38,630 bases of DNA. Source: Planktomarina sp. (GTDB lineage Bacteria; Pseudomonadota; Alphaproteobacteria; Rhodobacterales; Rhodobacteraceae). Below are positions 20,919-32,656 of this stretch, one piece after another. The position numbers and the translations under genes were made by a program. Numbering within the stretch: the first letter of the stretch is position 1; each line of letters opens with the position of its first letter. The stretch spans positions 1-38,630 of the forward strand of contig JAFMEA010000018.1 in NCBI GenBank assembly GCA_017856985.1, given 5' to 3'. The notes under the pieces were generated by a model, which searched no databases, was not told the origin of the DNA, and saw nothing but the letters and a program-made list of their open reading frames with translations.

Positions 20919-23804
20919 ATGGCTGAACTAAAAAAAATTGAAGTCCGGGGCGCACGCGAGCACAATCTGAAAAATATAGATGTGGATATTCCGCGTGATA
21001 AATTAGTAATTATCACAGGTTTGTCGGGCTCTGGAAAATCATCTCTAGCCTTTGATACAATTTATGCTGAGGGCCAGAGAAGATATGTTGAAAGCCTCTC
21101 TGCCTATGCCCGGCAGTTTCTTGATATGATGGAAAAGCCAGATGTTGATCACATTAGTGGTTTGAGCCCTGCAATCTCAATTGAGCAGAAGACAACTTCT
21201 AAAAATCCGCGTTCTACAGTTGGAACAGTGACAGAAATTTACGACTATATGCGCTTATTGTTTGCGAGAGTCGGCACGCCATTCTCACCTGCAACGGGCT
21301 TGCCTATTGAGGCGCAGCAGGTACAGGACATGGTAGACCGGGTAATTGCCATGCCAGACGGAATTCGTGGATTTTTGTTAGCGCCGATCGTGCGTGACAG
21401 AAAGGGCGAATACAAAAAAGAATTTCAAGAGCTTCGCAAGCAGGGGTTCCAGCGGGTCAAGGTAGATGGTGAATTCTATGAATTGGATCAGCCGCCAACC
21501 TTAGATAAAAAATTTAGGCATGACATCGATGTTGTTGTTGATCGAATTGTTGTTGGTGAGGGCATTGAAACACGCTTGGCTGATAGTTTTCGCACAGCGC
21601 TTGATCTTGCAGACGGGATCACAGTTCTGGAGACTAAGAATTCTGAGGGAGAGACGGAGAGGTATACCTTCAGTGAAAAATTTGCATGCCCAGTTTCCGG
21701 GTTTACTATTCCTGAAATTGAACCGCGGTTGTTCTCCTTCAACGCACCGTTTGGTGCTTGTCCCGATTGTGATGGATTGGGGGTGGAGCTTTTCTTTGAC
21801 GAGCGTCTAGTTGTTCCTGACCAGACCCTTAAAATAAATGATGGTGCTTTGGCCCCTTGGCGCAAAGGAAAGTCACCATATTTTCTCCAAACAATTGAAT
21901 CAATTTCGAAACATTATAGCTTTGATAAATCGTCGAAATGGAAAGATTTATCTGCACAGGTACAAAAAGTATTTCTTTACGGATCAGGTGCAGAAGAAAT
22001 ATTGTTTCGCTACGATGAAGGTGGTCGTGTTTATCAGGTTACCCGCACATTTGAAGGCGTAATACCAAATATGGAACGCCGTTATAGAGAAACTGATAGC
22101 AATTGGATACGTGAAGAATTTGAACGTTATCAAAATAACCAGTCATGTGGAAAATGTAGTGGTTATCGGCTGCGTGCTGAGGCATTAGCTGTAAAGATTG
22201 CTGACTTACATGCGGGACAGGTGGTTCAAATGTCGATTAAAGAGGCATTTGATTGGTGTGAAAGCGTTCCCGCTCAATTGGGTAAGCAAAAACTGGCAAT
22301 TGCTGGTCCAATCTTAAAAGAAATACGTGAACGATTGGGATTTCTTAATAATGTTGGTTTAGAATACTTAACTTTAGCGCGAAATTCTGGTACGTTGTCT
22401 GGGGGTGAAAGTCAGCGGATCAGATTGGCGAGCCAAATTGGCTCAGGGCTGCAAGGCGTACTGTATGTTTTAGACGAACCCAGTATTGGGTTACATCAAC
22501 GAGACAATGGTCGCTTATTAACAACCCTAAAGAATCTTCGTGATCAAGGTAATACAGTAATCGTAGTTGAGCATGATGAAGAGGCGATACGCGAGGCTGA
22601 TTATGTATTTGATATTGGACCAGGAGCTGGAGTGCATGGTGGGCACGTAGTAGCTTGTGGCACGCCAGACGAAATAATAGCTAACGGCGCCTCGATTACC
22701 GGTGATTATCTGGCTGGGCGTCGTGCTATAGATATTCCTACAAAACGCAGACTGGGCAATAAGAAAAAAGTCTCCGTTCGTAAGGCCACGGGAAATAATC
22801 TGCAAAATGTCACCGTTGATTTTCCACTAGGTCAATTTGTTTGTGTGACTGGTGTGTCTGGGGGTGGAAAGTCAACCTTGACCATTGAAACATTGTTCAA
22901 GACTGCCTCGATGAGCCTCAATGGAGCGCGGCAGACGCCAGCCCCGTGTGAGGCCGTTAAAGGATTAGAGCATCTCGACAAAGTTATTGATATAGACCAG
23001 CGTCCCATCGGCCGCACACCTCGTTCAAATCCAGCAACCTATACTGGCGCCTTCACTCCAATCCGAGATTGGTTTGCGGGAATGCCTGAATCAAAAGCTC
23101 GTGGATACAAGCCGGGTCGCTTTTCTTTCAATGTTAAAGGTGGACGTTGCGAGGCCTGTCAAGGAGATGGAGTTATCAAAATCGAAATGCACTTTCTTCC
23201 AGATGTATATGTTGAGTGTGAGACCTGTAGAGGTGCGCGCTACAATCGCGAAACCCTTGAAGTAAAATTTAAGGGCAAGTCAATTGCTGATGTTCTCGAT
23301 ATGACTGTTGAAGTTGCTCAAGAGTTTTTTAAAGCTGTACCCTCAATCCGAGAGAAAATGGATGCGTTGATGCGCGTAGGTCTGGGTTATATTAAAGTTG
23401 GTCAGCAGGCGACTACACTTTCAGGAGGAGAAGCCCAACGAGTGAAACTCTCCAAGGAATTGTCTAAGCGCAGCACTGGACGTACGTTATATATACTTGA
23501 TGAGCCAACAACTGGCCTGCACTTTGAAGATGTACGCAAGCTTCTGGAAGTATTGCACGAACTCGTAGATCAAGGGAATTCTGTTATTGTAATTGAACAT
23601 AACTTAGATGTAGTAAAAACAGCTGATCATATCATTGATATTGGACCTGAAGGAGGGGACGGTGGTGGACAAATTGTTGCCAAAGGCACCCCAGAAGAAG
23701 TTGCAAGTATTTTGGGCAGCCATACCGGGCGATACTTGAAAGATATGTTAGCTTCAAAGGGCAGATTGATACCGCAAACTACAGCTGACCGCCTTCAAGC
23801 ATAG
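20919..23804 (+). CDS. uvrA: Excinuclease ABC subunit A (UvrA)
   Basis: A 961-residue nucleotide excision repair ATPase that scans DNA for bulky damage with UvrB. Two ABC modules are present: Walker A GLSGSGKS (34-41) and GVSGGGKS (about 645), with signatures [18 protein letters not shown] and [15 protein letters not shown], and Walker [14 protein letters not shown] and [13 protein letters not shown]. The C-terminal zinc site is intact ([10 protein letters not shown] and ECETCRG). The first zinc module reads CPVSG then CPDCDG, so one of its four usual cysteines is Ser. The 200 bases upstream show no clear alphaproteobacterial SOS box (GTTC-N7-GTTC). Confidence 0.96.
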
Positions 23805-23862
23805 CAGTTCAAGTGAGGGCTATTAGTTAAAATTTTACTACAATATCTAATCTGAGCGACCT

Positions 23863-25188
23863 TTAGAGGTTAGGTTTGGTAAGAATAAGATCGAGTAGGC
23901 TTTGAACTTCTGTGGCGTTTAGCTTATCGAAGCTTGTGGCAAATTCTTCAATTTTTTTTGCTATGCTGGAACCTAAAATATGATCAGAAAAATTATGAAA
24001 TTTTTCTGATATTTCGACGTCGCTTAACGGAAGATCTGTGTCCCCACGTGGGGTGCCTGGGGCTGCCTCATACCGTGTCCCATTTCGCATTAAAATCGAG
24101 ACTTGTGCCCACCGTTTGCCTTCGCTTATCTGCGTTAAATGTGCATCTTCAATTAAGGTTGTAGCTGCACTAATCCTCAAGATATTAGGATCTTTTAAGG
24201 TTGAAACTTCCAGCTCAGAAACACCCACTTGGCCGCGTACAATCATACATGCAACTGGGAAAGCTATAGAATATGCAAATTCATCTGCAGAGACTGGCTT
24301 ATGTCCTGCCAGTCGCGTGGCGTTGTGAAATGTCCTGATCTCCACCGAAGCTATTTCTTGATAAGATAACTTGTGGCGTAACATTAATTCAGATGCTGCA
24401 TCAATACTGGGATGGGCCCAACGGCAGCAGGGGTAGGGTTTATAATGGGTGTCAGTTACAAGTTTCCACTCATTTCCTAGGCTTTCCCAATGTGGGCCCT
24501 CGCAGGTAAGAGCCGGTGCGCCGGTGAATCCGTTCTGAGCCAAAAAACCAGCTGTGATGCCAGTAGGAGCACCCCAACCTACGCCATCGCGCACCATAGT
24601 AGGGTGATCGATGCAGCGCATCATTTGGCTGCGTGGACCGTGATATTCTCCAATCCCTGCCGCTTCGTTGATTTGTGTTTCTTCACAGCCCAAGATGCGC
24701 GCAGTCATAGCAGCCACTCCAATAGCCGTCCAAGCCCCAGAGGTATGGTAATCGGCGCAGGTGTCATGTTGGGTTAACCCGGCACGGTAGGAAATTTCAT
24801 AGGCCAGTGCTAAGTAAGTGGCTAAGTCTTGGCCGGTGAACCCCTTTCCATCAGCTAAGGCAAATAACGCTGGAAAAATGGCAGAGCCTGCATGGCCTTT
24901 ACAAGGGGAGCTTCCGTCATGGCCATCCACGCTGTCGATAGTCATAGCGCCCGCCATGGCTGCTCCCGCGGCGCTGACAATATTTCCGTCAAACAAACAA
25001 CGTGCAGATGACGTTGGGGTGCTACCAAACATTATTCTTGCAGTCTGGCTGCCAATTTGTGCCATCTTACTCTGGGACCCGATTGCAGCTACGCCAATGG
25101 TGTCTAATAAGGATCGGCGTAAGACCCGCAGAATATCTTCGTTCAGGATATCATATCGAAGGTTTGCTGCAAATTCTTTCATTAACAT
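23863..25188 (-). CDS. MmgE/PrpD family protein
   Basis: A 441-residue protein of the MmgE/PrpD family, whose characterised members dehydrate 2-methylcitrate or decarboxylate cis-aconitate. Recognisable features are LLDTIGVAAIGSQSKM near the N-terminus, SVDGHDGSSPCKGHAGSAIFPAL, SGAWTAIGVAAMTARILG, the active-site-like HYKPYPCCRWAHPSIDAA block, and FPVACMIVRGQVG. No other methylcitrate-cycle gene is present, and the substrate is unknown. The ATG at 25188 has AGGA 6 bases upstream. Its 5' side borders the remnant of mmsB, suggesting it arrived or became adjacent during breakdown of the old valine operon. Confidence 0.85.
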   Translation of the reverse strand: MLMKEFAANLRYDILNEDILRVLRRSLLDTIGVAAIGSQSKMAQIGSQTARIMFGSTPTSSARCLFDGNIVSAAGAAMAGAMTIDSVDGHDGSSPCKGHAGSAIFPALFALADGKGFTGQDLATYLALAYEISYRAGLTQHDTCADYHTSGAWTAIGVAAMTARILGCEETQINEAAGIGEYHGPRSQMMRCIDHPTMVRDGVGWGAPTGITAGFLAQNGFTGAPALTCEGPHWESLGNEWKLVTDTHYKPYPCCRWAHPSIDAASELMLRHKLSYQEIASVEIRTFHNATRLAGHKPVSADEFAYSIAFPVACMIVRGQVGVSELEVSTLKDPNILRISAATTLIEDAHLTQISEGKRWAQVSILMRNGTRYEAAPGTPRGDTDLPLSDVEISEKFHNFSDHILGSSIAKKIEEFATSFDKLNATEVQSLLDLILTKPNL

Positions 25189-25238
25189 GGCGTATCCTAC
25201 GACCGGCTGTGGCCCTCAAGTTATGCTAACACGTCCAA

Positions 25239-25358
25239 TTAATAACTGCATGAGCCAATTTTGTCCTCAAAAAAGTTTTGGGAAACTTTGGCGGCAGCTG
25301 CTAAACTCAAAGTCATAGGCGCGCTCATATGCATCATACCTAAATAGCTTATTTTCAT
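25239..25358 (-). pseudogene. Remnant of mmsB (3-hydroxyisobutyrate dehydrogenase), N-terminus only
   Basis: A 39-codon frame starts with ATG at 25358 and ends in TAA at 25239. It begins MKISYLGMMHMSAPM, which lines up with the family opening MKIGFIGLGNMGxPM, the NAD-binding GxGxxG loop. The glycines that bind NAD are gone (GMMHMS). About 10-15 further residues (LSLAAAAK) fit the next helix, then similarity fades. A functional mmsB is near 290 residues, so this cannot be active. The ATG follows the stop of the preceding HIBCH remnant by one base (TAAGATG), keeping the original operon spacing. Confidence 0.7.
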
Positions 25359-25359
25359 C

Positions 25360-25542
25360 TTATTTGTCCATAAAATCTAACGGATGCTTCCCAAGTGGAC
25401 GAAGCATGGCGCTGGCAGCTGAAAGTAGAGGGTCTGTTAAGGTGTACTGCCATTTTGGTTTTTTATCTTTATCCATAACTAGGGCGCGGATGCTCTTAAT
25501 AAAATCTCCGTGCACAGCTTTGGACGCGGGAGGATAGTTGGC
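25360..25542 (-). pseudogene. Remnant of 3-hydroxyisobutyryl-CoA hydrolase (C-terminus)
   Basis: Sixty codons without a stop, ending in TAA at 25360. The part DFIKSIRALVMDKDKKPKW lines up with the conserved C-terminal block of 3-hydroxyisobutyryl-CoA hydrolase (enoyl-CoA hydratase superfamily; consensus DFxEGVRAxLIDKDxxPKW). It is followed after 19 residues by PLGKHPLDF, like the usual end PLGxxxLxF. The catalytic crotonase core, about 280 residues, is missing. The fragment is in the same frame as the acyl-CoA dehydrogenase remnant just upstream and separated from it by a TGA, which marks the junction of a large internal deletion. Confidence 0.72.
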
Positions 25543-25708
25543 TCACGTATTTAAGCCTCGAGCTACAATTATGCGTACAATTTCATTACTAATTTCTAGA
25601 ATTTGGTAAACTCATAAGTCTCCAACTGTTTTTTATGTAATATTCAGCAAAGAAGGCTTAGCTTCCACTGAGCTGCATAAAGACATTCGCCACTCTGCTA
25701 CTTATTTC
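25543..25708 (-). pseudogene. Remnant of acyl-CoA dehydrogenase (isobutyryl-CoA type), C-terminus
   Basis: Read on the minus strand, one frame gives RVANVFMQLSGS, a stop, then AFFAEYYIK. This lines up with the acyl-CoA dehydrogenase block VANEALQLHGGYGYLxEYxIEK, with the Tyr codon turned to TAA. A slip in an A-run moves to a second frame: KTVGDL, TGA, VYQILEISNEIVRIIVARG, matching K-x-V-R-D-L-R-V-H-Q-I-L-E-G-T-N-E-I-M-R-x-I-V-A-R, with Arg changed to TGA. The natural stop may be the TGA at 25543. Two in-frame stops and a frameshift show it is dead. Isobutyryl-CoA dehydrogenase is the step between branched-chain oxoacid dehydrogenase and the later valine steps. Confidence 0.72.
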
Positions 25709-25814
25709 GGTGATAGGCTACTCTCTGGATTCTTACAAATTGCCCTATGTTGCTGACACCAAAATCTGTAGCTATATCCTTCAATAACCAGGAGTATATA
25801 AAGCTCTCAATTTT
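25698..25814 (-). pseudogene. Possible fragment of an AraC-type regulator (HTH end)
   Basis: A short open stretch just downstream of mmsA encodes DIATDFGVSNIGQFVRIQR and stops at 25698. This resembles the second helix-turn-helix of AraC-family regulators (IAxxxGFSxLGxFxRxYR). Only about 25 residues can be compared, no start or first HTH is visible, and it overlaps the start of the acyl-CoA dehydrogenase remnant. It may be a leftover of a regulator of the old operon, or a chance match. Confidence 0.3.
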
Positions 25815-25829
25815 AGAACAAAAAGTATT

Positions 25830-27329
25830 TTACTCCATGATTGGAATACTAAATTCACTACCTTCTTTAAGTCCTGACGGCCAACGCGCGGTAACAGTTT
25901 TTGTGCGGGTGTAAAATTTAAAAGCATCTGGGCCATGTTGGTTGAGATCGCCAAAGACTGATTTTTTCCAACCACCAAATGTATGATAAGCCAATGGCAC
26001 TGGAATCGGTACGTTTATCCCAATCATGCCGACGTTGACACGATTTGCAAAATCACGAGCAGTGTCGCCGTCCCGAGTAAAGATAGCTGTCCCATTTCCA
26101 TATTCATGATCCATGGCAAGGCCGAGGGCCTCCTCGTATGATTGTGCACGGACAGTAGAGAGCACGGGCCCAAAGATCTCATATTTATAAATATCCATGT
26201 CTTTTGTGACATTATCGAACAAATGCGCTCCCACAAAGAAACCGTCTTCATAGCCTTGCAGATTAAAATTACGACCATCCACAACTAATTTGGCGCCCTG
26301 ATCTAAGCCGGTTTGGACTAAGCGTTCGATGTTAGCTTTGGCAGCTGCTGTAACCACAGGCCCGTAGTCGACATCATTTCCAGAAGTATAGGGTCCAACT
26401 TTGAGAGCCTCAACACGTGGAATTAATTTTTCCAGCAAGCGATCTGCGGTATCTTCTCCAACTGGCACTGCCACTGAAATTGCCATACAGCGCTCGCCAG
26501 CGGCCCCATAACCAGCACCAAGAAGGGCATCGGCAGCTTGGTCCATATCTGCGTCTGGCATTATTATCATGTGGTTTTTAGCACCGCCAAAACATTGAAC
26601 ACGTTTCCCGTTGGCACAACCCGTCGCATAGATATATTCAGCGATTGGTGTCGACCCCACAAATCCAATGGATTGGATGACATCATGATACAAAATTGCG
26701 TCCACAGCTTCCTTGTCACCGTTTACAACCTGTAAAACACCCTTTGGAAGCCCAGCTTCTTCAAATAATTTAGCCAACATCAGCGGAACTGATGGATCTC
26801 GCTCGGATGGTTTCAAAATGAACGCATTTCCACAGGCAATGGCAGGTGCAAACATCCACATTGGGATCATTGCTGGAAAATTGAATGGAGTTATACCTGC
26901 GGTTACACCGAGTGCCTGGCGCATAGAATACATATCAATACCGGGTCCCGCACTATCAGTGTATTCACCCTTTAATAATTGAGGGGCGCCAATGCAGTAC
27001 TCCACAACTTCCAGACCACGAATAACATCGCCCTTGGCATCTGGAATGGTCTTACCATGCTCGCGGCTTAACGCCTCTGCTAATTTATCCATGTCGCGGT
27101 TTAAAAGGTCCACAAATTTCATTAACACGCGTGCACGGCGTTGCGGGTTTACAGCAGCCCAACTCTGTTGGGCGGTTACCGCAAAACTTACGGCTTTATC
27201 CATTTCAGCTGCGTTGGCTAATGGTACTGTGGCCTGAATTTCACCAGTAGCAGGATTATATACATCAGCAAATCGACCAGATGTACCTTTTACATGCTCG
27301 CCGTTTATATAGTGGGTTAGCTCTTGCAT
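25830..27329 (-). CDS. mmsA: CoA-acylating methylmalonate-semialdehyde dehydrogenase (MmsA/IolA)
   Basis: A 499-residue aldehyde dehydrogenase superfamily enzyme. It oxidises methylmalonate semialdehyde to propionyl-CoA (last step of valine and thymine breakdown) or malonate semialdehyde to acetyl-CoA (inositol, beta-alanine, uracil routes). The active cysteine is C281 in GAAGERCMAIS. The Asn of PFNFPAMIPMWM is at 150. KPSERDPSVPLM and the C-terminal block PIPVPLAYHTFGGWKKSVFGD are typical of the MmsA branch, which lacks the usual catalytic Glu. The gene is complete, with AGGAG 8 bases upstream of the ATG. Its usual operon partners survive only as decayed fragments downstream, so it now acts alone or for another pathway. 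Confidence 0.95.
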   Translation of the reverse strand: MQELTHYINGEHVKGTSGRFADVYNPATGEIQATVPLANAAEMDKAVSFAVTAQQSWAAVNPQRRARVLMKFVDLLNRDMDKLAEALSREHGKTIPDAKGDVIRGLEVVEYCIGAPQLLKGEYTDSAGPGIDMYSMRQALGVTAGITPFNFPAMIPMWMFAPAIACGNAFILKPSERDPSVPLMLAKLFEEAGLPKGVLQVVNGDKEAVDAILYHDVIQSIGFVGSTPIAEYIYATGCANGKRVQCFGGAKNHMIIMPDADMDQAADALLGAGYGAAGERCMAISVAVPVGEDTADRLLEKLIPRVEALKVGPYTSGNDVDYGPVVTAAAKANIERLVQTGLDQGAKLVVDGRNFNLQGYEDGFFVGAHLFDNVTKDMDIYKYEIFGPVLSTVRAQSYEEALGLAMDHEYGNGTAIFTRDGDTARDFANRVNVGMIGINVPIPVPLAYHTFGGWKKSVFGDLNQHGPDAFKFYTRTKTVTARWPSGLKEGSEFSIPIME

Positions 27330-27796
27330 AATTTTCTCCTAAGGTTTGCGTCAACTTAGCCTCGCGACTACAGAAATAAAAGGGCATTAAATTAAATTCA
27401 ATTTAAAAAATATAAGGATGTATTGTATAGTCGGGATTATATGTAGGTTCCAATCTGAACGTCTAATTTGCTGTTTTTAAATGGGTTACTTTGCTGATCA
27501 GTGAGCGGGCCCTAGACCGCAAATTTATCTCTAGCATTTTAACATAATAGTTTTGTATTTTTACGGTCTGATTTTATTATACTCTCGATATTGGCTATTC
27601 TTGGTAGGATTAACTTTTTTAGGTAGCCAGTTTAGCTCTTTTAAAAAGGCTTTATTAACCAGAAATCCATTGAGAGCATTTTGGATAGAAGCTAGAAAAG
27701 TTAATGCCATAGGTTTTTTTGGTTATTATTGATGCCAAATACTTGCAATTCTTGCAAAATCTGGCTTCTTGTCCTCAACCAATTGGAGAATACCGG
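27330..27796. other. 467-bp intergenic region, no gene recognised
   Basis: This divergent gap between mmsA and coaD is unusually long for the window and very AT-rich. It must hold both promoters. A minus-strand 49-codon frame (27715 to 27566) begins at ATG but has no convincing ribosome site and no recognisable motif. Short GC hairpins such as GCGG/CCGC near 27505-27520 lack T-runs. The gap may contain a decayed regulator gene, but I see no alignable remnant. Confidence 0.5.
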
Positions 27797-28291
27797 ATGC
27801 GTGTAGGACTTTACCCTGGAACATTTGATCCTATAACTTTGGGGCATATAGATATCATACGCCGTGGTTGTGCCTTAGTTGACCGCTTGGTAATTGGGGT
27901 GGCTATTAATCGTGAGAAGGGTCCTTTGTTTGATCTGGAGGAACGTTTAGCCATGATTAATGAAGAATCTCGTTTGCTAAATTTGAAAACAGGGATTGAG
28001 ATAGTTGTACACCCATTTGAGAACTTGCTTATTGATTGCGCCCGGGACGTGGGGGCAAGCATAATTCTGCGTGGGTTAAGAGCCGTTGCGGATTTTGAGT
28101 ATGAGTACCAGATGGTTGGAATGAACCGCCAACTTGACAGTAGCATAGAAACTGTCTTTTTAATGGCGGAGGCTCACCATCAAGCAATTTCATCCAAGTT
28201 AGTTAAAGAAATCTGTGGGCTAGGTGGGGATGTGTCTAAGTTTGTGACGCCTGCGGTCAATTTGGCATTGAAAGCTAAATTGAACAACTAG
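27797..28291 (+). CDS. coaD: Phosphopantetheine adenylyltransferase (CoaD)
   Basis: A 164-residue enzyme of coenzyme A synthesis that joins 4'-phosphopantetheine and ATP to dephospho-CoA. It has the nucleotidyltransferase motif GTFDPITLGH near the N-terminus, RGLRAVADFEYEYQMVGMNR in the middle, and ISSKLVKEI near the end. The open frame extends upstream to a TTG at 27719, but the ATG at 27797 gives the family's normal start (MRVGLYPGTFDP) and has GGAG 8 bases before it. Its stop TAG lies within CTAG, which on the other strand is the stop of the convergent gap gene, so the two genes overlap by 4 bases. Confidence 0.95.
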   Translation: MRVGLYPGTFDPITLGHIDIIRRGCALVDRLVIGVAINREKGPLFDLEERLAMINEESRLLNLKTGIEIVVHPFENLLIDCARDVGASIILRGLRAVADFEYEYQMVGMNRQLDSSIETVFLMAEAHHQAISSKLVKEICGLGGDVSKFVTPAVNLALKAKLNN

Positions 28292-29289
28292 ATAAGTTTT
28301 CCCATTGCTACTGCCGTATCTGCCATTCGGTTTGAGAAGGCCCATTCATTATCATACCAAGCTAATATTCGAACCATGTCTCCGCCCATAATCATCGTCT
28401 GATCGATATGAAAAACTGATGAATGCGGATCATGATTAAAGTCAGAAGAGACTAATGGCTCATCAGTGACGTCTAATACGCCTTTTAAAGGCCCAGCCGC
28501 TGCCGCCTGCATCATGTCAGTGATTTCTGCTTTATTCGTATGTTGGCCTGCCTCAAAGGTTAAGTCTATAGCTGATACATTTGGAGTTGGGACACGGATA
28601 GCCACCCCATCTAACTTACCGTCCAATTCTGGAAGGACCAAACCCACAGCCTTAGCTGCTCCTGTGGTGGTCGGTATCATAGATAGCGCTGCGGCGCGGC
28701 CACGATAGAGATCGTTATGAGGCCGATCTAATGTGGGCTGATCTCCGGTGTAGCTGTGGATTGTAGTCATTAAACCACGTTTGATACCAATGTTGTCATG
28801 CAATACCTTGGCGATTGGCGCCAAACAGTTTGTGGTGCAAGATGCATTTGAAACGATTAAATCTTCGGCAGTTAAAGTGTTGTGATTAACTCCATAAACA
28901 ATTGTTTTATCTGCATCCCTACCAGGAGCAGAGATTAAAACTCGTGAACAGCCGTTGTCGAGGTAAGACTGGCAATCAGTCTTTGATGTAAAAATCCCAG
29001 TACATTCCATTACAATGTCAACGTCTGACCAAGGCAAATCAGCTGGGTTTCTAAAAGCGGTCACGCGAATGTCATTTTTACCCAACTTAAAAGAGCTTTT
29101 TCCAGCCGTTAATTTAGTTTGAAAACGGCCATGTACGGAGTCATACTTCAATAAGTGTAAATTGCTTTCGATTGAACCCAAGTCATTTATGGCTATGACT
29201 TCTAAGTCGGAGCGTTTTGACTCAACGATTGCACGCAGAATATTGCGGCCAATACGCCCAAAGCCATTTATCCCAATTTTTAGTGTCAT
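28288..29289 (-). CDS. gap: Glyceraldehyde-3-phosphate dehydrogenase, NAD-type copy
   Basis: A 333-residue type I GAPDH that catalyses the reversible oxidation of glyceraldehyde-3-phosphate to 1,3-bisphosphoglycerate. It has the Rossmann start KIGINGFGRIGRN, catalytic C151 in SNASCTTNCLAP, and H178 in TIHSYTGDQ. Asp36 (INDLG) and Pro190 (TLDRPHND) are the residues that, in well-studied enzymes (D32 and P188 of the Bacillus enzyme), favour NAD over NADP. It converges on coaD. Upstream lies a close match to the CceR operator at 29310-29323. A second gap copy starts 1.2 kb upstream in the same direction, with 167 AT-rich bases between them. Confidence 0.95.
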   Translation of the reverse strand: MTLKIGINGFGRIGRNILRAIVESKRSDLEVIAINDLGSIESNLHLLKYDSVHGRFQTKLTAGKSSFKLGKNDIRVTAFRNPADLPWSDVDIVMECTGIFTSKTDCQSYLDNGCSRVLISAPGRDADKTIVYGVNHNTLTAEDLIVSNASCTTNCLAPIAKVLHDNIGIKRGLMTTIHSYTGDQPTLDRPHNDLYRGRAAALSMIPTTTGAAKAVGLVLPELDGKLDGVAIRVPTPNVSAIDLTFEAGQHTNKAEITDMMQAAAAGPLKGVLDVTDEPLVSSDFNHDPHSSVFHIDQTMIMGGDMVRILAWYDNEWAFSNRMADTAVAMGKLI

Positions 29290-29309
29290 ACTTGAAAGCC
29301 ACCTATTTT

Positions 29310-29323
29310 TGATAGCGCTAACA
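29310..29323. promoter_or_regulatory. Putative CceR-type operator upstream of gap (NAD copy)
   Basis: TGATAGCGCTAACA lies 21-34 bases before the gap ATG. It matches TGTTAGCGCTAACA at 13 of 14 positions. As I recall it, that is the palindrome recognised by the LacI-family carbon regulator CceR of Rhodobacter sphaeroides. The core TAGCGCTA is perfectly palindromic. Position near the ribosome site suggests repression. The regulator gene is not in the window. Confidence 0.5.
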
Positions 29324-29456
29324 TCATGTCATTGCATTGAAGTCAACATATCTATTACCTATTACACCGTATCAATAACTAAATTAATTTTTTAAAAACA
29401 AAAATTAATGTTTAGAATCAAAATTTTAATGTTTAATTATTTCTTTAAAGATGAAT

Positions 29457-30458
29457 TTAAAAAAGTGTTCCCATTTTTGCTGCTAAGTCTGCCATTCGTA
29501 CAGAAAAGCCCCACTCGTTGTCGTACCATGCTAAAACTCTCACGGTGGTACCGCCAATTACTTTGGTCTGGTCAGGGGCAAAGATAGAGGATTCAGTCGT
29601 ATGGTTGAAATCTATTGAAACTTTAGGCGCTGGATCATATCCGATAATTCCTTTTAAATTCCCTGACGCAGCTACTGCTACGCAAGCGTTAACTTCTTCC
29701 ATTGTTACTTGCTTTGAGGCTTCAAAAGTAAGGTCAATGCACGATACATTTGGTGTTGGGACTCGAATCGCTGTCCCGTCCAGCTTACCTGCCATTTCTG
29801 GCAATACTTCTTCCAAGGCTTTTGCTGCTCCCGTCGACGTTGGTATTAACGACAACGCTGCGGCTCGGGCTCGATAAAGGTCACTGTGGCGCCGATCTAG
29901 AGTGGGCTGATCCCCGGTATAGCTATGGATTGCAGTCATAATTCCACGCTCTATGCCGATTGAATTATTCAAGACCTTAACCAGGGGTGCAAGACAATTC
30001 GTCGTGCAGGATCCGTTGGAAATGACTTTGTCGGTAGGTAATAGCATATTTTCGTTGGCACCTAAAACAATCGTCCGATCCACATTTTTGGCTGGTGCAG
30101 AAATTAGAACTTTTTTGGCGCCCTGCTTGAGATGAACCTTAGCATTGTCGCCGTCGTTGAAGTTCCCAGTGCATTCAAGAACGACGTCAACATTCTTCCA
30201 ATCTAGATCAGTTGGGTCATAGGAGGAGAACATTTGAATAGGGCCGTCACCCATATTTAAATTTCCACTTTTGGTTGTAATTTCACCAGAGAAGCGGCCA
30301 TGAACGCTGTCGTACCTCATTAAGTGCGCGCTGGTTTCCAATGGCCCAGTAGCATTTATCGCAACCACCTTTAAATCGGTGCGGCGACTTTCATGGATAT
30401 GTGATAAAATGCAGCGGCCAATACGTCCAAACCCATTAATGCCAATTTTTACTGTCAT
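29457..30458 (-). CDS. gap: Glyceraldehyde-3-phosphate dehydrogenase, second copy (possibly NADP-preferring)
   Basis: A 333-residue type I GAPDH that aligns with its neighbour without gaps. Catalytic C151 (SNGSCTTNCLAP) and the HSYTGDQ histidine are kept. The NAD-selecting Asp36 is Ala (INATG) and Pro190 is Arg (TLDRRHSD). In B. subtilis GapB and in engineered Bacillus GAPDH, loss of these two residues shifts preference to NADP. This copy may therefore work in the gluconeogenic, NADPH-using direction; that is inference. It lies between tkt (upstream, same strand) and the other gap. A second, weaker CceR-like site is at 30539-30552. Confidence 0.93.
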   Translation of the reverse strand: MTVKIGINGFGRIGRCILSHIHESRRTDLKVVAINATGPLETSAHLMRYDSVHGRFSGEITTKSGNLNMGDGPIQMFSSYDPTDLDWKNVDVVLECTGNFNDGDNAKVHLKQGAKKVLISAPAKNVDRTIVLGANENMLLPTDKVISNGSCTTNCLAPLVKVLNNSIGIERGIMTAIHSYTGDQPTLDRRHSDLYRARAAALSLIPTSTGAAKALEEVLPEMAGKLDGTAIRVPTPNVSCIDLTFEASKQVTMEEVNACVAVAASGNLKGIIGYDPAPKVSIDFNHTTESSIFAPDQTKVIGGTTVRVLAWYDNEWGFSVRMADLAAKMGTLF

Positions 30459-30538
30459 TTTACTATCCCAACCAATATTACTTTTTTGGTTAGCAAGGGA
30501 CTTTACGGAATGAAAGTTAAAACAGGCAATCTGGATTA

Positions 30539-30552
30539 TGTTAGCGAAAACA
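30539..30552. promoter_or_regulatory. Putative weaker CceR-type operator upstream of second gap
   Basis: TGTTAGCGAAAACA matches TGTTAGCGCTAACA at 12 of 14 positions, with one half-site intact. It is 81 bases upstream of the second gap ATG, a distance compatible with a promoter-proximal site. A lone half-site GGTTAGC occurs at 30488-30494. Confidence 0.4.
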
Positions 30553-30611
30553 TTTTTGATATAAGGGATAAGTGAACGTTATTTTAATATAATTAAAATT
30601 TTTTATTAATT

Positions 30612-30639
30612 TAACGGAGAAGAATTTTAATCACCGTTA
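30612..30639 (-). terminator. Possible terminator after tkt
   Basis: TAACGG (30612-30617) and CCGTTA (30634-30639) form a 6-bp stem with a long AT loop, immediately after the tkt stop. On the minus strand the next bases are AATTAATAAAAAATTTT, only weakly T-rich, so termination may be partial and allow read-through into gap. Confidence 0.3.
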
Positions 30640-30640
30640 C

Positions 30641-32656
30641 TTACAATAATGACCTGGCCTTTTCACTAATTGCCTCTGCTGTGATTCCAAATTTTTTATA
30701 TAGTTGCTCGGCTGGGGCGGATGCGCCAAAACCGCTCATCCCTATAAAGCCGGCCTTAGACTCTCGACCTCTTTCTCCTAATAGCCATTGGTCCCAGCCC
30801 ATTCGAACGGCTGCTTCTACCGCTACTCGGACTGCACCACCTGGTAATACACGCCTACGATAGGGAGTATCTTGCTGCGCAAATAATTCCATACAAGGCA
30901 TGGAAACTACACGCGTACCTATTCCGTCGGCCTGGAGTAGGTCGCGGGCGTGCATGGCGAGAGAGACTTCCGTGCCCGTGGCAAGTAAGATTACCTGGCG
31001 TTTGCCCGTGGCTTCAGCCAAAATATAGGCGCCGCGTGCGCTGAGATTTGCAGCTTTATAGTTGGTTCGCACTGGCGGCACACTTTGCCGTGACAGAGCC
31101 ATTACGGTAGGTGTGCTGGACTGGCTTAGAGCTACTTCCCATGCTTCGGCTGTTTCGGTAACGTCAGCAGGTCTGAAAACTAATGTGTTGGGTGTAGCAC
31201 GCGAAATTGCAAGATGTTCTACTGGCTGGTGAGTTGGACCATCTTCCCCGAGACCAATTGAGTCATGGGTCATTACATACACAGTTGGAACTCCCATTAA
31301 AGCTGACAGGCGCATTGCACCGCGGGCATAGTCAGTAAAACACATGAAAGTTCCACCGTAGGGTCGAAGCCCACCATGCAATGCTATGCCGTTTAGGGCC
31401 GCTGCCATGCCATGTTCGCGGATCCCAAAATAAATGTAACGGCCTTTCCTATTTTCTGGGTTAAAAACACCCATATCATCTGTTTTCGTATTATTTGATC
31501 CAGTTAAATCAGCGGAGCCTCCCACGGTGTGCGTCATTACTGGGTTAACTATCTTCAATGTACTCTCTGACGCTTTACGGGTGGCTACTTTAGGAAGTTT
31601 TTCGGACGCTTCTTTTTTTATCAACCGGATTGCCGTACCTAATTTTTTTGTAGTCTCACCAGAAAATGCTTGGCTGAACTGGCTCTGACGGAAGCGCGAT
31701 AAATTCTTAAATCGAGCCTCCCAATCTAATCTCTCTAATGTTCCTCGTGCGCCTATAGCTTTCCAGTCAGCCCGTACATCAGCAGGAATTTCAAAAGCAC
31801 CGTGGCCCCAGCCGTAAGCAGCTTTGGCATCAGCTAATTGTTTAGCATCGGTTAATGCACCGTGGCCTTTTGAAGTATCTTGCGCCGCGTGGCCCAACGC
31901 AATGTGAGTTTTGCAAGCAATCATTGAAGGTTGTTCTGTGTGACGTGCGATATTTAAGGCTGTGTCAATTGCTTTCGGATCATGGCCATCTATGGACTGC
32001 ACGTGCCAGCCAGATGCTCTGAAGCGCTGTATTTGATCTGTTTTGTCCGACAAATCAACTGGGCCATCAATCGTGATATTGTTATCATCCCACAAGACAA
32101 TTAAGTTACCTAGGTTTTGGCGCCCGGCTAAGCCGATAGCTTCTTGGCTTATCCCCTCCATTAAACAGCCATCACCTGCGATCACATATGTCTTGTGATT
32201 TTGAATACTTTTGCCGTGGGTGGCTCGCAAAATCTCTTCTGCGATCGCAAAGCCGACTGAATTGGCAAGGCCCTGGCCAAGAGGCCCAGTTGTAGTTTCA
32301 ATACCGCTTGCATGGCCATACTCTGGGTGACCTGCTGTTTTGGCGCCCCATTGGCGAAAGTTCTTAATTTCTTCAAGGGTCATGTCTGCGTAACCGGTTA
32401 AATGCAAAAGTGAATACAGTAACATTGAGCCGTGCCCAGCAGACAATATAAACCGATCCCGATCTGGCCAGTTTGGTTCAGATGAATCAAACTTTAGATG
32501 TTTTTCGAATAATACGGTGGCTACATCAGCCATCCCCATTGCCATTCCAGAATGTCCAGAGTTAGCCGCAGCTACCGCATCAAGAGTAAGCGCTCTAATG
32601 GCGGCGGCTTTCTTCCAGTGGGCAGGGTTTCTTGAAGCAAGTGCCTTGAGATCCAC
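30641..32656 (-). CDS. tkt: Transketolase
   Basis: A 671-residue thiamine-diphosphate enzyme of the pentose phosphate pathway that moves two-carbon units between sugar phosphates. It shows [18 protein letters not shown] (H35), [15 protein letters not shown] (H75), and the ThDP/metal motif GDGCLMEG (from 161) ending in DDNNIT (about 191). The central [10 protein letters not shown] carries the catalytic Glu, and [19 protein letters not shown] is the transketolase signature. The start codon is GTG at 32654-32656, with AGGAAGG 8 bases upstream. Placement beside two gap genes makes a small central-carbon cluster. The 197-bp leader contains a minus-strand intrinsic terminator. Confidence 0.96.

Follow-up and report, generated by a model that had tools for sequence, protein, structure and literature searches.

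What occupies the 641 bases (25189-25829) that separate an intact mmsA from an MmgE/PrpD-family gene in this Planktomarina genome, and why does mmsA itself survive there? The window, by which we mean the whole 38,630-nucleotide stretch analysed (contig JAFMEA010000018.1), belongs to a draft genome of 2.58 Mb in 175 contigs with 95.25% completeness, hereafter G000. An earlier note had given coordinates for the gap that proved correct (Table 1), and had read the gap as a fossil valine-degradation operon. Our comparison supports that reading, and we consider it highly probable (roughly 0.9) that the gap is what remains of a block of a valine-catabolism operon that became pseudogenised specifically in this lineage. 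Among the matches listed for the MmsA protein, from which very near records may be missing, the closest named ones belong to Rhodobacterales (e.g. Litoreibacter, Yoonia, and Sulfitobacter, at 89-90% amino acid identity). Elsewhere in the window (28288-32656), two glyceraldehyde-3-phosphate dehydrogenase genes in tandem (333 aa each) lie beside a transketolase gene.

Table 1. Features of the mmsA-PrpD region in the window, with the evidence for each.
Feature	Coordinates	Strand	Evidence
MmgE/PrpD-family gene, intact, 441 aa	23863..25188	-	PF03972 and PF19305 above cut-off; 80% aa identity to G017
31 bases ahead of the PrpD start, corresponding to mmsB end and PrpD leader of G017	25189..25219	-	22/31 bases identical, ungapped
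mmsB (3-hydroxyisobutyrate dehydrogenase) N-terminus remnant, first 19 codons; starts one base past the HIBCH stop	25301..25358	-	DNA match, shuffle score, junction
HIBCH C-terminus remnant, last 52 codons and stop; first ~290 codons missing	25360..25518	-	tblastn, shuffle score, PF16113, junction
ACAD (isobutyryl-CoA dehydrogenase-like) C-terminus remnant; stops and 2-base frameshift at 25635/25634	25543..25713	-	frames, tblastn, alignment, shuffle scores
mmsA, CoA-acylating (methyl)malonate-semialdehyde dehydrogenase, 499 aa, intact	25830..27329	-	TIGR01722 635.5 bits (cut-off 448.5); 96% aa identity to G010; dN 0.027, dS saturated
mmsA-coaD intergenic stretch; divergent LysR-type gene of relatives absent, as in G010	27330..27796	.	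comparison with relatives

Remnants of an acyl-CoA dehydrogenase (ACAD), a 3-hydroxyisobutyryl-CoA hydrolase (HIBCH), and mmsB are all present in the gap, in operon order and on the mmsA strand (minus), as judged from reading frames, DNA alignment, and shuffle scores. For the latter, the best local protein score of the minus strand of the gap against the proteins of intact relatives was compared with 500 dinucleotide shuffles; the scores of 89 for ACAD, 184 for HIBCH, and 55 for mmsB were each reached by 0/500 shuffles, whose maxima were 51, 46, and 43, respectively. Searches of the gap by tblastn with the proteins of an operon-bearing congener (G017) recovered HIBCH (E 3e-14) and ACAD (E 4e-7), and gave no mmsB match at E<=0.01 with matches below 25% identity filtered out, so that the identity of the mmsB remnant rests on its shuffle score and on a 211-base DNA match. 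This match is an ungapped block, 73% identical to the relative G010, that runs from the HIBCH end through one spacer base into the mmsB start. The TAAGATG junction to which the earlier note had pointed is real, and its one-base spacing recurs in G010 (TAAAATG) and G017 (TGATATG). At the ACAD end, 171 bases align to G010 DNA in two ungapped blocks (63% and 70%), while the HIBCH remnant scores 23.3 bits against PF16113, below the 27.2 cut-off. The reading frames are broken, as had been claimed, by deletions and, within the ACAD piece, by stops together with a 2-base frameshift. A further ACAD N-terminal piece at about 25778-25720 is plausible by eye; its score of 36 was matched by 18/500 shuffles, and we do not claim it.

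Relatives within the genus carry intact orthologues of the operon at the same place. In G017 the genes run coaD, lysR, mmsA, ACAD, HIBCH, mmsB, prpD, uvrA, with every frame open; its HIBCH and HIBADH score 345.6 and 359.9 bits against NCBIfam cut-offs of 274 and 291.6, while its ACAD exceeds no listed cut-off, so that a role as isobutyryl-CoA dehydrogenase is suggested by the company of the gene. The mmsA-ACAD-HIBCH-mmsB-prpD locus of congeners (G017, G012, G004, and others) thus matches the window in place between coaD and uvrA, in order, and in strand, whereas in the window about 2.5 of the 3.2 kb is missing and none of the three reading frames survives. In the 11 relatives with both flanks readable, the mmsA-PrpD interval measures 3,178-3,192 bases and holds all three genes (with a frame break in 3/11), as compared with 641 bases in the window. 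Neither of the outcomes that the earlier note had named as contrary to its reading, a lack of matches to these three families in this order or conservation of the same sequence as coding in relatives, was found.

ACAD adjoins mmsA in 13/20 genomes of the genus (G000 included), joined by HIBCH in 12 of these and by a full-length mmsB in 11. All three genes have open frames beside mmsA in eight genomes (G001, G002, G003, G004, G006, G012, G015, and G017), and the operon carries frame breaks in three (G007 and G018 in mmsB, G009 in ACAD), which are likely assembly errors, given that G007 and G018 also have a split mmsA and that G009 and G018 show a disturbed uvrA. The G009 uvrA region (L039 8881-10999) gives matches in several frames with many stops, as expected if the gene is broken or the assembly is poor there. 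Two further operons are cut by a contig end, in G010 within mmsB and in G005 within ACAD, leaving HIBCH and mmsB of the latter out of sight. Another four genomes (G011, G013, G014, and G019) carry HIBCH and HIBADH away from the mmsA contig, G011 without a close ACAD; a contig end truncates mmsA in G014 and G019, and adjacency of their operon to mmsA is unreadable. The remaining 3/20, namely G000, G008 (67% complete), and G016 (86%), show neither the operon beside mmsA nor HIBCH and HIBADH elsewhere. Both of the latter were considered as sharers of the deletion and set aside as unreadable at this locus: G008 has its PrpD orthologue in different surroundings and yielded no coaD, and in G016 the contig ends inside uvrA, with mmsA and coaD not found. 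By uvrA, among genomes with a match to that gene, G016 is the nearest to G000 (99% aa; 95.7% DNA over 2,399 bases).

The apparent assembly errors at this locus in G007, G009, and G018, together with the fragmentation of G000 into 175 contigs, could suggest that the short interval was mis-assembled or mis-binned and that the true genome has the operon. We regard such an artefact as very improbable, since gene order on both sides agrees with relatives, the remnants contain many scattered substitutions of a kind that a mis-join does not make, and the whole assembly, on which this judgement rests, yielded no true HIBCH or HIBADH.

The search for second copies gave the same picture throughout the 95%-complete assembly, with no HIBCH, mmsB, or close ACAD elsewhere. 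The best HIBADH match in the G000 contigs reaches 174.1 bits against a cut-off of 291.6, the best PF16113 match has an E-value of 2.8e-35 as compared with ~1e-102 to 1e-106 for operon copies of HIBCH, and the closest ACAD shares 35% identity with its G017 counterpart. This route of valine breakdown therefore appears to have been lost in G000, in so far as a draft of 175 contigs at 95.25% completeness, from which a second copy could be missing, represents the genome. PF12573, used for BCKDH, had no match anywhere, controls included. Valine catabolism might instead continue through unrelated or promiscuous enzymes, with only these copies lost, and G000 does have matches to the families concerned (8 to ACAD, 5 to HIBADH, and 9 to crotonase). 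All of them fall short: the HIBADH matches stay below the cut-off, the crotonase matches below the scores of operon HIBCH, and the ACAD matches at no more than 35% identity with the lost copy. Moreover, operon-bearing relatives carry such paralogues as well, which makes continued catabolism by these means unlikely.

The loss can be placed relative to a sister genome. G000 pairs with G010 in the mmsA protein tree (support 86/89, below the tool's star) and also by coaD (92% aa; dN 0.044, against at least 0.094 to the other eight). As G010 retains the whole of ACAD and HIBCH, and mmsB up to its contig end, the loss postdates the split between the two. We counted changes in the remnants at ungapped sites where G018, G007, and G017 agree (272 of 367 aligned sites usable), and in mmsA with a different set of references (G017, G005, and G012). 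G000-only changes in the remnants number 35/215 at codon positions 1 and 2 and 15/57 at position 3, as compared with 13/945 and 32/162 in mmsA (Fisher p 8e-5 on change counts), which indicates relaxed constraint at positions 1 and 2. At the same remnant sites G010 has 5/215 changes of its own at positions 1 and 2 and 4 at position 3; with only these 9 G010 changes, the ratio of positions 1 and 2 to position 3 does not differ significantly between the two genomes (Fisher p 0.45). Changes at positions 1 and 2 are more numerous in G000 than in G010 both in the remnants (35 vs 5 of 215, p 4e-7) and in mmsA (13 vs 4 of 945, p 0.048), so part of the remnant excess may reflect a faster lineage. The ratio is 0.62 in the remnants and 0.16 in the intact pair G010-G007; by a hand estimate with saturated third positions and a large error, the genes may have been non-functional over roughly half of the branch that leads to G000 from its split with G010. 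Of the recent decay that the earlier note had proposed, the part that stands is that it postdates the G010 split; recency in itself is not established, and with ~80% of the interval gone and 35/215 changes at positions 1 and 2 the decay is not fresh.

The same changes bear on whether the gap is more than dead sequence and was recruited to a new role, as a short peptide or a regulatory RNA. In favour of such a role, an open frame of more than 50 codons persists in the HIBCH piece. What is left after the loss of some four fifths of the interval is nonetheless marked by the stops and frameshift of the ACAD piece and by heavy change at positions 1 and 2, and no Rfam match was found at gathering scores in 23500-28500; we regard recruitment as very improbable.

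Two neighbours of the operon have histories of their own. A divergent lysR adjoins mmsA in 11 relatives and is absent in both G000 and G010, hence it was probably lost earlier than the valine genes. A candidate LysR remnant in the expected orientation within the mmsA-coaD stretch of the window was rejected, as its score of 37 was reached by 15/500 and 14/500 shuffles in two runs. In the opposite orientation the same stretch holds a LysR-like match with a score of 48 (0/500 shuffles), which is gappy and of low identity, and the corresponding G010 stretch shows nothing. PrpD has been kept in G000 as well. Its orthologue in G008 (77%; L195 5031-6401) lies near an enolase-superfamily gene (below every cut-off) and, by eye, near RraA-like and sugar ABC-transporter genes, a neighbourhood that suggests PrpD is not a valine gene and hints at a sugar-acid role.

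The earlier note was silent on the survival of mmsA, and the link to inositol is added by the present analysis. Both inositol and pyrimidine breakdown lead to malonate or methylmalonate semialdehyde, from which MmsA/IolA enzymes make an acyl-CoA, and a single CoA-acylating dehydrogenase of this type can act in valine as well as inositol breakdown. In G000, mmsA is the sole match to itself at E<=1e-100, and it is strongly constrained (dN to G010 in Table 1). The genome encodes iolD (790 bits, cut-off 715) and iolC (319.5, cut-off 300), followed by an IolB-like gene (147.5 of 205 bits) and an aldolase (228.9 of 343.05), both below cut-off, and iolD exceeds its cut-off in 17/20 genomes of the genus. 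No iolA was found among the 8 proteins scanned near iolD, where 10 ORFs reach 150 aa or more. A hydantoinase/dihydropyrimidinase-family gene is also present (TIGR02033 586.1 bits, cut-off 393.25). The likeliest explanation, judging from gene content, is that mmsA survives because an inositol cluster without its own iolA, and perhaps also pyrimidine breakdown, needs it. Of a pathway pair to which MmsA/IolA enzymes are common, the valine branch would here be gone and the shared enzyme alone left.

We hypothesize that the ancestral locus comprised a divergent lysR followed by mmsA-ACAD-HIBCH-mmsB-prpD between coaD and uvrA, and that lysR was probably lost first, before G000 and G010 diverged. After that split the three valine-specific genes would have been inactivated and mostly removed by at least three deletions (~2.5 kb net), with mmsA retained for other pathways yielding malonate or methylmalonate semialdehyde. 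More tentatively, and with somewhat less than an even chance in our judgement, this may represent the stepwise release of a shared enzyme, in which loss of lysR and then of the valine-only genes turned mmsA into a dedicated inositol/pyrimidine gene in place, G010 being a preserved intermediate.

Gene loss and pseudogenes are described in pelagic Roseobacter lineages in the main texts of two studies (PMC12661815, PMC10675870), from which the words valine and inositol are absent, and among the publications listed in literature searches no title concerned this loss. One of them gives pseudogene shares of 4.9-15.3% in the RCA cluster (PMC12661815), of which membership of the present genome would be a guess. 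As far as these texts go, the event is thus ordinary in kind: a clear yet ordinary gene loss. It nonetheless offers a clean example of pathway loss, in which the scraps are still readable, a sister keeps the genes, and several congeners are available for comparison. On the genomic evidence, the species is predicted to be unable to use valine by this route despite its mmsA, and, with the valine genes lost and mmsA kept, an annotation of valine degradation based solely on mmsA would be mistaken.
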